From: Methylacidiphilum caldifontis
Lineage (GTDB): Bacteria; Verrucomicrobiota; Verrucomicrobiia; Methylacidiphilales; Methylacidiphilaceae
Direction of reading: 5' to 3'
DNA: 64,000 nucleotides
NCBI RefSeq assembly: GCF_017310505.1
Contig: NZ_CP065957.1
Coordinates: forward strand, 868,001-932,000
Shown: one piece after another, positions 5,027 to 26,672 of the stretch
Layout: every line of letters begins with the position of its first letter
How positions within the stretch are numbered: the stretch's first letter is position 1
Notes under the pieces: model-generated
Told to the model about the DNA's origin: nothing
Database searches by the model: none
What the model saw: only the letters and a program-made list of their open reading frames with translations
Made by a program: the position numbers and the translations under genes

Positions 5027-5042
5027 TGGCACACCCTTTGCT
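5027..5042 (+). promoter_or_regulatory. sigma-54 promoter of nifA
   Basis: TGGCACACCCTTTGCT, an excellent -24/-12 match (TGGCAC-N5-TTGCT). Predicted +1 is near 5053, which falls inside the first possible nifA ATG (5051) and 7 nt before the second (5060). nifA would thus be transcribed by the same sigma factor whose promoters it activates. Confidence 0.88.
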
Positions 5043-5059
5043 TTATTTCAATGAGGCCC

Positions 5060-6646
5060 ATGAAAAAAAGTGGAGAATTTGTTGCCATTTATGAAATTAG
5101 CAAGATCCTCACTTCTCCTCAGTCAACGCTTTTTCGATCCTTAAGAGAATCTTTAAAAGTTTTAAGTCTTAATTTAAAGTTACAAAAATCTTTGATTTTT
5201 GTCCGAAGAGGATTTAATCCCACTCTTCTTAGCTATTATGGGGATGTCTATGCTGAGGATAATCTTTCTTTCTATTATTCTCTTATCGAACAGATTTTAA
5301 AAAATGGCTTTCCCATTGTTGTTCCCGATATCCATAAAGAACCTTACTTCAATACAGTTATTGCTTCCGCAGACAGCACACAAGAACCCGTTTCCCTTTT
5401 TTGCTTGCCGATTCGATTCGAAAGAGAATGTATTGGAGTTCTAGTTTGTGAAAAGAAAAGAGAGTCAGCCCTTGAGTCTATATCCGAAATTACCTTGACG
5501 TTAAGCTTGGCATCGAATCTTTTCGGACAAAAACTAAAACTCAGCATAGGTAATTTAGAAGACACTTCTTTTTATGAGAACTATGAACCGACAACTAGCT
5601 TAACGAAAAATGACGATAGTCGAATCAAAATAAATAATGGGGTCATTGGTAAAAGCAAGACGATGCAGGCCGTGATGGATCTTGTCTATCATGTTGCTCC
5701 TTCCCGATCTACTGTTCTGCTTCGCGGGGAAAGCGGAACAGGCAAAGAGGTCATTGCACGGACAATACATTATCTAAGCCCCAGGAAAGATGGACCCTTT
5801 ATAAAAGTCAATTGCTCGGCTTTGCCCGAGACTATTCTTGAGTCAGAACTCTTTGGACATGAAAAAGGAGCCTTTACAGGAGCTCTTTTTGAAAGAAAAG
5901 GCCGGTTCGAACTGGCACATGGAGGTACACTCTTTCTTGACGAGATTGGTGATATATCACCCTCTGTCCAGGTAAAACTATTACGTGTTTTACAAGAAAG
6001 AGAGTTTGAAAGGGTTGGGGGAAACAAAACCATTCGAGTAGATGTAAGGGTTATTACGGCAACAAATAGAAACCTTGAAGAAGCGGTCTTAAAGGGTGAA
6101 TTCAGGGCCGATCTTTACTTTCGGATCAATGTTGTGTCCATTTATCTGCCTCCACTGCGGGATCGCAAAGAGGATATTCCACTGCTTGCCGAGCACATTT
6201 TGAATAAAATCGGAAAAGAACTAAACAGAAAATTAAGAATTACCCCTGAAGCCCTTAATCTCTTGATCAATTGCCATTGGCCAGGAAATGTAAGGGAGCT
6301 TGAAAACTGCTTAGAACGGGCTGCGACTAACTCTAGAAATAACTGGATAGATGAGATTGATGTCGCGTGCCGTAGGAACCAATGTTCTTCACCGATGTTA
6401 TGGAAAAAAGACCTCCAGCTCATCGCTACCCCTGTCGTCTCATTTGAAGAAAGCAAGCCTAAAGAAGAAACTCAAAGATCTTCTTTCTACAACCCGCTTG
6501 TTGCGGATGACCCCAAAGAAAAAATCATTCAGGCCATGGAAAAATGCGGTTGGGTTCAAGCAAAAGCTGCACGCATGTTGAACATTACGCCCCGTCAACT
6601 CGGATACGCTCTCAAAAAATATGGCATTGAAATAAAAAAGTTTTAA
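5060..6646 (+). CDS. nifA: NifA, sigma-54-dependent activator with oxygen-responsive cysteine motif
   Basis: Transcription activator of nif genes, 528 residues from the ATG at 5060. That ATG is chosen because the predicted +1 (about 5053) excludes the ATG at 5051. An N-terminal GAF domain (about 15-160) is followed by an AAA+ domain with Walker A GESGTGKE (223-230), the sigma-54-contacting GAFTGA loop and the LFLDEIGD Walker B, and by a C-terminal Fis-type helix-turn-helix (AKAARMLNITPRQLGYALKK). Cysteines 405, 417, 437 and 442 form C-x11-C-x19-C-x4-C across the end of the AAA+ domain and the linker, the signature of NifA proteins that sense oxygen or iron directly. No nifL is nearby. Confidence 0.95.
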   Translation: MKKSGEFVAIYEISKILTSPQSTLFRSLRESLKVLSLNLKLQKSLIFVRRGFNPTLLSYYGDVYAEDNLSFYYSLIEQILKNGFPIVVPDIHKEPYFNTVIASADSTQEPVSLFCLPIRFERECIGVLVCEKKRESALESISEITLTLSLASNLFGQKLKLSIGNLEDTSFYENYEPTTSLTKNDDSRIKINNGVIGKSKTMQAVMDLVYHVAPSRSTVLLRGESGTGKEVIARTIHYLSPRKDGPFIKVNCSALPETILESELFGHEKGAFTGALFERKGRFELAHGGTLFLDEIGDISPSVQVKLLRVLQEREFERVGGNKTIRVDVRVITATNRNLEEAVLKGEFRADLYFRINVVSIYLPPLRDRKEDIPLLAEHILNKIGKELNRKLRITPEALNLLINCHWPGNVRELENCLERAATNSRNNWIDEIDVACRRNQCSSPMLWKKDLQLIATPVVSFEESKPKEETQRSSFYNPLVADDPKEKIIQAMEKCGWVQAKAARMLNITPRQLGYALKKYGIEIKKF

Positions 6647-19639: not shown

Positions 19640-21022
19640 TCAATCCCATGGAGCAGGGGTTTTAACCACTGCCCAAACAGGATTGCTAAGTGCACGATCG
19701 ATCTGATCAACCAGATTAACCATCCCTTCGTAACCCGCGTAGGCATGATGTCTTTCTTGGTTGATGTCTAACCAAGGGACTTTGGCTTTCAAGGCCACAA
19801 ACTGCGATCTTCCTCCCGAAAGCAGAATATCGGCCTCTGCCTCTTTAAGCATTTTATACATTTCTTTAGGAGTCATCTCCTCAATCATGTGAGCATCCTC
19901 ACCCATGATTTTCTTTATCCTTTCCTTGTCCTCGGCTGTTGATTTCTTGACGCTTGTTCCCACTACAATCAGCCCAACCTCTTGCAAAGCCGAAACGACT
20001 GACCAAGATTTAACTCCTCCAGTAATCAATAGGACTCTTTTGCCCGAAAGTCTCTTTTTGTATTTTTCCATCCTTTGCCATGCCCTCTGTTCTTCATGGC
20101 GAATTAAAATTTCGGTTTTGGCTAGCAGCTCTTCAGGAGCCCCTCTTTGCACAAGCAATCGTGATATATTTCTTAAAGCATCACTCATGTCCGAAATACC
20201 GTAAAAGGACCCCTCAAAAAAGGGAATCCCATAGCGCTCTTCCATCTTTCTAGCAATGTTAACCATCGCTTTTGAACACACCAGCATTGCTGCCCTAGCT
20301 CGATGACAACTGGCTATTTCTCGATAGCGACTATCCCCCGTAATACAGGCGGCTATCCTTATGCCGAGCTGGTCAAAAAGGGGTTTTACCTGCCATAATT
20401 CTCCAGCCAAGTTATATTCTCCGATAATGTTAATATCATAAGGAGTAGTGATTTCGGGCTCTTCAGTCCCAATCACATAGTCTAAAAGAGCTTCTCCAGC
20501 GAGCTTATTTCCAAGATTTTTACTCCCTGCAAAGCCTGGAGATTGTATAGGAACAACGGGTATACCGAATTTTTCTTTTGCCGCCTTACAGACCGCCTCT
20601 AAATCATCCCCGATCAACGCAGGGATGCAAGTGTTATAAACAAAAACAGCCGGAGGATGGTATTTTTCGATTGCCTCTCGTATGGCCTTGAATAACTTTT
20701 TTTCCCCTCCATAGATAACGTCCATTTCGTTTATGTCTGTCGTAAAGCCCATCCGATAAAGCAGAGAACCCGATGATTTCGATCCCCTATTATCCCAGGA
20801 ATTGCCTTCACAGGCTATAGGACCATGAACAAGATGGACAACATCAGTAATAGGCTGCAAGGCAATCTTGGCTCCATCGAATGCACATCCACCGGCAGCA
20901 GCCCCAGGCTGCAATATTTTTGTGCATCCTTTTTTCCTTTCTTTATCTGATTTTGAACGGTTTTTCTGGCAGGCTGGTTCATTAAATACTTCTTGGATCT
21001 TTGCAGAAAGGGTGCCATTCAT
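19640..21022 (-). CDS. nifE: NifE, FeMo-cofactor scaffold subunit
   Basis: Alpha subunit of NifEN, 460 residues. The N-terminal Cys motifs (GGCAFDGAKIALQPITDVVHL; GPIACEGNSWDNRG) supply ligands of the O-cluster at the subunit interface, and PAVFVYNTCIPALIGDDLEAV holds the third cysteine. The family region VLLITGGVKSWSVVSALQEVG follows. It has a strong GGAGGAGG ribosome site and lies 35 nt after nifK. Sequence is closer to NifE than NifD, lacking the NifD FeMo-co histidine context. Confidence 0.95.
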   Translation of the reverse strand: MNGTLSAKIQEVFNEPACQKNRSKSDKERKKGCTKILQPGAAAGGCAFDGAKIALQPITDVVHLVHGPIACEGNSWDNRGSKSSGSLLYRMGFTTDINEMDVIYGGEKKLFKAIREAIEKYHPPAVFVYNTCIPALIGDDLEAVCKAAKEKFGIPVVPIQSPGFAGSKNLGNKLAGEALLDYVIGTEEPEITTPYDINIIGEYNLAGELWQVKPLFDQLGIRIAACITGDSRYREIASCHRARAAMLVCSKAMVNIARKMEERYGIPFFEGSFYGISDMSDALRNISRLLVQRGAPEELLAKTEILIRHEEQRAWQRMEKYKKRLSGKRVLLITGGVKSWSVVSALQEVGLIVVGTSVKKSTAEDKERIKKIMGEDAHMIEEMTPKEMYKMLKEAEADILLSGGRSQFVALKAKVPWLDINQERHHAYAGYEGMVNLVDQIDRALSNPVWAVVKTPAPWD

Positions 21023-24264: not shown

Positions 24265-25188
<924 letters not shown>

Positions 25189-25213
25189 CTAAAAACGCCT
25201 TTATTGCTCTATG

Positions 25214-25229
25214 AGCAGTAAGCATGCCA
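25214..25229 (-). promoter_or_regulatory. sigma-54 promoter of nifHDKENX
   Basis: TGGCATGCTTACTGCT on the minus strand, exact GG-N10-GC spacing; predicted +1 near 25203. Confidence 0.9.
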
Positions 25230-25373
25230 AAATCGTTTTTTTAGAGCAAAAACCTCCTGCCACTCTTATTTTCAGCTCATAGAAAAAAAGGGAGGAGGGG
25301 GCTTTGCCAAATTGAACCTATGAAAGCTTGGCTGATTCTTGATTTAGTCTATCTTCCAATCTGGCGCAAAAGC

Positions 25374-25389
25374 TGTTAAGAAAAAGACA
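25374..25389. promoter_or_regulatory. NifA site 1 between nifH and nifV
   Basis: TGT-N10-ACA (N10 = TAAGAAAAAG), centred about 153 bp from the nifH -24 and about 118 bp from the nifV -24. Confidence 0.7.
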
Positions 25390-25402
25390 AAAAAGAAAGA
25401 TT

Positions 25403-25418
25403 TGTCGAAATGCTTACA
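25403..25418. promoter_or_regulatory. NifA site 2 between nifH and nifV
   Basis: TGT-N10-ACA (N10 = CGAAATGCTT), centre 29 bp from site 1, about 182 bp from the nifH -24 and about 89 bp from the nifV -24. The two sites are probably shared by the divergent promoters. Confidence 0.72.
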
Positions 25419-25496
25419 TGCCCCCCCATTTGATGACGGTCTAAGTATAAGAAGAAAGAATATGTAGGAACCTATCTGTTTTCTAGGGTTACTTTG

Positions 25497-25512
25497 TGGC
25501 ATAATTTCTGCT
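25497..25512 (+). promoter_or_regulatory. sigma-54 promoter of nifV
   Basis: TGGCATAATTTCTGCT with exact GG-N10-GC spacing. Predicted +1 is near 25523, one base before the GTG start codon of nifV. Confidence 0.88.
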
Positions 25513-25523
25513 TCAAAATTTGA

Positions 25524-26672
25524 GTGGGAATCAAAAGCCAGATCCTTTTAGCGGACACGACCTTACGGGATGGTGAACAAGCTCCCGGAGTTGTTTTGAT
25601 TCCCAAACAAAAAGCTCAGCTTGCAAAGCTTTTGGCTCGATGTGGTATAAAGGAGATAGAAGCGGGAACACCCTCAATTGGCCAAGTTGAATTAGAAGCT
25701 TTTGATAAAATTCTTTCCCTCGGTTTAAAGGTTAGAATTGTTGCTTGGGGAAGAATGACCGATGACGATCTCAAAGCGGTTAAAGCCTCACAAGTATCCA
25801 CGGTTAACCTTTCGATCCCCCTTTCCGATGTCCAGATCTTTACGAAACTAAAGACCGAGAAAAAACAAGTCCTAGAAAAAATAAAAGAATACGTAAGCAA
25901 AGCCAAAGAAATGGGACTGGAAGTAGCTGTGGGAGGAGAAGATGCTTCCCGGGCAAACAAATATTTTCTTATTGAAGCCATAGAAATGGCTAAACAGTTT
26001 GGAGCTTTTCGTTTTCGCTATGCGGATACCGTCGGTATTCTTGATCCCCTGCGCACCTTTAAAACTCTATCCTGGCTAAAAAAATGGACTTCTCTACCCC
26101 TCGAATTTCATGGGCATGACGATTTTGGGATGGCGACCGCCAACTCCATTGCTGCCTGGCAAGCGGGTGTTGATTCGATTAGTGCAACCCTCTGTGGTTT
26201 TGGAGAAAGAGCGGGGAATGGAGCACTCGAAGAAATCGCTTTTTTCCTTACTCTCAGGGAAAAAGTGGATACAGGGATTGATCTGAAGGCTCTTTTCTCA
26301 TTGTGCCCGATTGTTGCTCGTTATTTTAAAAGAAAGATTCCCCCCTGGAAAAGCATTATTGGAGAAGATATTTTCCTTCATGAATCAGGTATACATGTGG
26401 ATGGCATTCTCAAAAACCCGATAAACTATGAACCCTTTAATCCCAGTATCATAGGTAGAAAACATCGTTTTGCCCTAGGAAAGCATTCAGGAAGAAAGTC
26501 AGTCATCTGGACTTATGAAAAACTTGGCATTAAGCTAAGTGAGCAAAAAGCGCTCGAAATTTTAAACAAGATCAAGCAGTTTACCGTTGATAAAAAAAGA
26601 ATCCCTTCGAAAGTAGAGTTACTCGAGTTTGTAAGTGATCAATCCCCCTGCATTTCCCAGACCACCCCATAA
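25524..26672 (+). CDS. nifV: NifV, homocitrate synthase
   Basis: Condenses acetyl-CoA with 2-oxoglutarate to homocitrate, the organic ligand of FeMo-co. The 382-residue product opens with the HMGL/isopropylmalate synthase motif LADTTLRDGEQAPG, has the metal-ligand motif FHGHDDFGMATANS and GFGERAGNGALEE, and a C-terminal tail shorter than LeuA. GTG at 25524 is the only usable start: a stop codon precedes it, and the next in-frame starts would delete the catalytic motif. There is no ribosome site and the sigma-54 +1 falls at about 25523, so the message is probably leaderless. Confidence 0.95.
   Translation: MGIKSQILLADTTLRDGEQAPGVVLIPKQKAQLAKLLARCGIKEIEAGTPSIGQVELEAFDKILSLGLKVRIVAWGRMTDDDLKAVKASQVSTVNLSIPLSDVQIFTKLKTEKKQVLEKIKEYVSKAKEMGLEVAVGGEDASRANKYFLIEAIEMAKQFGAFRFRYADTVGILDPLRTFKTLSWLKKWTSLPLEFHGHDDFGMATANSIAAWQAGVDSISATLCGFGERAGNGALEEIAFFLTLREKVDTGIDLKALFSLCPIVARYFKRKIPPWKSIIGEDIFLHESGIHVDGILKNPINYEPFNPSIIGRKHRFALGKHSGRKSVIWTYEKLGIKLSEQKALEILNKIKQFTVDKKRIPSKVELLEFVSDQSPCISQTTP

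Follow-up and report, generated by a model that had tools for sequence, protein, structure and literature searches.

A predicted leaderless nifV message behind a sigma-54 promoter in Methylacidiphilum caldifontis, a candidate case of a lineage habit

Introduction

As a rule, leaderless messages are associated with housekeeping promoters. Classical NifA/sigma-54 nif promoters, of the nifH type, combine a TGT-N10-ACA site with a -24/-12 element, and their messages normally carry a leader with a Shine-Dalgarno (SD) site. In Deinococcus-Thermus, leaderless genes have an adjacent -10 element (TANNNT) and no SD site (PMC12340547). The leaderless mRNAs of mycobacteria have been measured and begin with ATG or GTG (PMC4633059). 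A 5'-terminal GUG is used efficiently in these bacteria (PMC4633059) and is weak in E. coli. RNA-seq has revealed leaderless mRNAs and RpoN promoters within the same genomes of S. meliloti (PMC3616915), B. japonicum (PMC4842269), and L. interrogans (PMC5243855); the passages on transcription start sites in these three reports draw no link between the two. According to the same passages, the motif upstream of leaderless mRNAs in B. japonicum is an extended -10 (TGnTA) and not a -24/-12 element, and the leaderless starts of S. meliloti are all AUG. The main text of a survey published in 2025, which compares sigma-54 regulons of different phyla, mentions neither leaderless messages nor start codons.

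The nifV locus of Methylacidiphilum caldifontis has features of several of these systems. It resembles the Deinococcus-Thermus genes in having a promoter element adjacent to the start and no SD site, but the element is the -12 of an activator-dependent sigma-54 promoter, not a housekeeping -10. Its TGT-N10-ACA sites and -24/-12 element are those of a classical nif promoter, whereas the leader with an SD site, present at nifH of the same genome, is missing. Its start codon is GTG, which is accepted at the 5' end in mycobacteria and differs from the AUG of the S. meliloti starts; the mycobacterial messages belong to another phylum and sigma class and were measured, whereas the nifV message is predicted. 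Strain SolV strongly induces nifHDK and further listed nif genes when it fixes N2; nifV does not appear in the main text of that report (PMC3404531).

Results and Discussion

The window analyzed here is a stretch of 64,000 nucleotides (NZ_CP065957.1, positions 868,001 to 932,000) of the complete 2.25 Mb genome. Background statistics were computed on these 64 kb together with 16 stretches (303 kb). The nifV gene occupies positions 25524–26672 on the plus strand, adjoins nifH, and encodes a homocitrate synthase-like protein of 382 amino acids. TIGR02660 is its best model by about 100 bits, with a score of 445.4 bits that lies below the curated equivalog cut-off of 462.9. The protein contains the DTTLRDGEQ and HxH motifs of the DRE-TIM metallolyase fold, and the nearest solved chain is 6ktq, a homocitrate synthase.

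The sigma-54 -24/-12 element of nifV, TGGCATAATTTCTGCT, matches the pattern at positions 25497–25512 (plus strand). Its GG (25498–25499) and GC (25510–25511) are 10 nt apart in a TGGCAY-N6-TGCW context, and RpoN is encoded in the genome. Counting C 25511 as -12 places the predicted +1 at 25523. Sigma-54 start points are usually uncertain by 1–2 nt. A TGA stop (25521–25523) abuts the GTG codon at 25524–25526 in frame, and this GTG is the only ATG, GTG, or TTG between the stop and the TTLRDGE codons. After it, no start codon occurs in frame until a TTG at +74, beyond the conserved active-site motif TTLRDGEQ (25557–25580). The preliminary description of this locus had given these coordinates, the sole usable start behind a stop, and the loss of the motif from any later start, and all of them agree with our reading. 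It had also set the GTG at the sigma-54 +1 itself; by the count used here the codon occupies +2 to +4, so that placement is off by one, although within the usual uncertainty. The predicted N-terminal peptide of NifV from this start is (f)MGIKSQILLADTTLR. SD complementarity is absent upstream of the GTG (duplex energy +1.3 kcal/mol), as is typical of leaderless mRNAs.

Two NifA-type upstream activating sequences lie between nifH and nifV. The first, TGTCGAAATGCTTACA (TGT-N10-ACA; 25403–25418, plus strand), is centered at -112 and has counterparts at -72 to -114 in all relatives. The second, TGTTAAGAAAAAGACA (25374–25389, plus strand), is centered at -141; it is present in five of five Methylacidiphilum species and absent in the second genus compared below. 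Each of the 11 relatives that carry a nifV of this type has at least one TGT-N10-ACA site at -72 to -114, and the nifA gene lies at the left end of the window. The arrangement is that of NifA-dependent promoters, with a conserved TGT-N10-ACA site approximately 70–150 nt upstream in a genome that encodes NifA. The box and the NifA-type sites, in a genome with rpoN and nifA, are the standard signs of a NifA/sigma-54 promoter, here read from sequence. On the minus strand, nifH (24265–25158) diverges from its own sigma-54 element, TGGCATGCTTACTGCT (25214–25229), and offers a leadered contrast to nifV: its GTG start is at +46 behind a ribosome site, AAGGAGGTAATT. A perfect sigma-54-like box was also seen at positions 21002–21017 (minus strand), within the first codons of a nitrogenase-like ORF (19640–21022); it is possibly a chance match.

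The position of the nifV start in its own genome is weak evidence by itself, as we estimate the chance at approximately 1 in 11 if the start could fall on any codon before the motif. We compared oriented sequences of 12 genomes including this one, five of Methylacidiphilum and seven of a second genus that is probably Methylacidimicrobium. The box is kept in 12 of 12 (all 11 relatives with the same type of nifV), and the first in-frame start at or after +1 falls at +2 to +8 in every genome: +2, +8, +2, +2, and +2 in Methylacidiphilum and +2, +5, +3, +3, +3, +3, and +4 in the second genus. Box-to-start spacing is thus nearly fixed, whereas conservation is poor from the NifA-type sites to the box, a stretch that also varies in length. 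The catalytic motif lies at +35 in Methylacidiphilum and at +47 to +50 in the second genus, and an N-terminus longer by 4–5 codons does not move the start away from the box. The start thus follows the promoter and not the protein. At the sequence level, this comparison turns the weak single-genome evidence into strong evidence. Several genomes of the second genus have further in-frame starts downstream or upstream of +1, so the true start there is ambiguous. Upstream starts are excluded by TGA 25521 here and by other stops in each of the Methylacidiphilum relatives. A frameshift that cost the gene an earlier start was also considered and rejected, as the relatives show none.

The exception within Methylacidiphilum is the closest relative (G009; L003, 1492–1500). 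GTG is found at +2 in four of the five species; G009 instead has ATA there, and its first ATG follows two codons on, at +8. A 7-nt leader may be tolerated or even preferred in this species. The exchange of ATA for GTG is a natural test of start-site choice.

To place nifV among other promoters of its genome, we compared all of the boxes with those of G009, G010, and G003 and kept the promoters conserved upstream of orthologous genes. Of these 21 promoters, 9 have the start at +2 to +8; tested against a uniform spread of starts over 60 nt, this gives p ~2e-4. The conserved promoters form two groups. The first has SD leaders, with starts at +46/+47 (nifH), +14 (hesB-like), +28 (nifB), +56 (pmoC), +18 (VOC-family gene), and +88 (glnB-like). 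The second has starts at +2 to +8, with no room for an SD site. The best anchored case is dnaK, as the N-terminus of DnaK is universal; its start is at +2 in three species. The start of amtB is at +3 in three species, that of a TonB-dependent receptor at +6, +6, and +7, that of a circularly permuted ATP-grasp protein at +3 and +5, and the ATG of a 53-aa lysine-rich ORF (L040, G000:C1 710883, plus strand) at +4 in three species, all without SD sites. Three more genes lack an SD site in this genome and vary among the species: a TonB-like protein (+2, +6, +16), nifW (+5 here, +9 and +20 in the others, as read from the sequence), and nifA (+8 here, then +9 and +28). A start next to the box is therefore not an oddity of nifV. 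What remains unusual is a GTG codon at the predicted 5' end.

Further observations concern the leaders of individual genes. At nifA (L045, window positions about 5027–5060), ATG codons are found at -1 and +8, counted from the sigma-54 start of the gene itself. The message would include only the one at +8, which would leave a leader of 7 nt and make autoregulation likely. The genes for pmoC (methane monooxygenase) and the VOC-family protein diverge from two facing sigma-54 boxes (G000:C1 2024117–2024321; L060, L061) with strong SD leaders on both sides, an arrangement conserved in G009 and G010. In G003, of the second genus, nifB and the hesB-like gene (L151, L152) have an in-frame ATG at +3, with frames also open upstream, and the same genes of Methylacidiphilum have SD leaders, with starts at +22 to +28 and +14. 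Leadered and leaderless forms thus seem to swap over short evolutionary time. In G003, four loci (L152, L151, L154, L171) have starts at +3 or +14 in frames that are open upstream too.

We also surveyed 193 genomes of the phylum for ATG codons at +1 to +9 (near) or +31 to +39 (far) behind a box. Some matches lie inside genes (for example, a recurrent cysS-like motif), so that only differences between families carry weight: near and far counts were 116 vs 31 in family f5 of the wider class (p ~5e-13), 52 vs 26 in family f3, 43 vs 26 in the Methylacidiphilaceae themselves, 83 vs 93 in family f4 (apparently Akkermansia-like), and 688 vs 762 in the phylum outside the class, which served as the control. 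In f5, loci with an ATG at +4 to +9 include genes for a nitrite/sulfite reductase and for the flagellar proteins FlgF/G, FlhB, and a rod protein of the basal body; L193, L196, L202, and L216 are flagellar loci of this kind. A sizeable fraction of the sigma-54 promoters in the Methylacidiphilaceae, and in at least one further family of the phylum, thus appears to have the -12 element approximately 12–20 nt before the start codon. Recurring at many sigma-54 promoters in this bacterium and its relatives, the layout looks like a lineage habit and not an accident.

The missing SD site has to be read against the lineage. A published survey finds functional SD sites in 15% of genes of the Methylacidiphilae (PMC10783764), and our crude count at ΔG ≤ -6 gives SD-like sites for 25% of genes in this genome against 21% in a within-gene control. 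As SD sites are scarce across the lineage, their absence at nifV is normal and is not evidence by itself; the start codon 1 nt from the predicted 5' end is more telling. Hexamers resembling a -10 showed a weak excess 12 nt before SD-less gene starts (9 vs an average of approximately 3.4 per position) with crude start calls, and for both reasons this genome-wide sigma-70 leaderless signature was not relied on. The preliminary description was thus right that nifV has no ribosome site, but this is the norm in an SD-poor lineage. Its central proposal, a leaderless or near-leaderless nifV message from a sigma-54 promoter, gains support as a prediction from conservation in two genera, from the conserved NifA-type site, and from a genome that encodes both RpoN and NifA. 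Its view that such a message is unusual holds for the 5'-end GTG and not for the layout, which is shared by dnaK, amtB, nifW, nifA, the TonB-dependent receptor, and others.

We consider it likely that the nifV message is leaderless or nearly so and is made from a NifA-activated sigma-54 promoter, with a start point 0–2 nt before the GTG, as one case of the lineage habit. NifA would bind at 25403–25418 (and 25374–25389) and drive sigma-54 polymerase at 25497–25512. Transcription would begin at 25522–25524 with a leader of 0–2 nt, and ribosomes would engage the 5'-terminal GUG directly, without SD pairing. Against this stand the 1–2 nt variation of sigma-54 start points, the weakness of a 5' GUG in E. 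coli, and the start at +8 in G009.

The box could be a real sigma-54 promoter while most translation of nifV uses a longer message, made from another upstream promoter, with SD-independent internal initiation at the GTG. A leadered message without an SD site would be ordinary in a genome with so few SD sites (25% vs 21%; 15% for the class, PMC10783764). However, a sigma-70-like promoter was not found in 25160–25600, and the variable upstream intergenic sequence contrasts with the nearly fixed spacing from box to start; we regard this explanation as unlikely. Less likely again is initiation at a non-standard codon (ATC/ATA class) or elsewhere, with the GTG incidental. The ATA of G009 at the aligned position, with its ATG two codons on, would fit such a start, but GTG is at +2 in four of the five species and another standard start before the motif is absent here. 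That the box is a chance resemblance and no promoter seems very improbable. A single degenerate match of 16 bases can arise by chance, and the reversed control pattern has 3 matches in the genome; the pattern TGGCAYN6TGCW has 31, and the nifV box recurs in 12 of 12 genomes, together with NifA-type sites and the box of the divergent nifH.

Conclusion

Leaderless mRNAs, NifA/sigma-54 promoters, and leaderless starts at GTG have all been described before, and their combination in one layout appears to be new. A limited search of the literature found no description of box-adjacent sigma-54 starts in Verrucomicrobiota. Beyond nifV, sigma-54 promoters joined directly to start codons may be a standard gene architecture in part of this phylum. 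The result would be an activator-controlled leaderless regulon (nitrogen fixation, ammonium uptake, and DnaK, with flagella in another family) that depends on leaderless initiation, including at a 5'-terminal GUG; we see this wider reading as evenly poised between right and wrong. If it is true, a tightly switched sigma-54 regulon that depends on an activator and feeds leaderless initiation would couple nitrogen status directly to another way of recruiting ribosomes. Such a regulon would be testable in culturable methanotrophs, and the gene starts of this lineage behind sigma-54 boxes would be predictable from the promoter.
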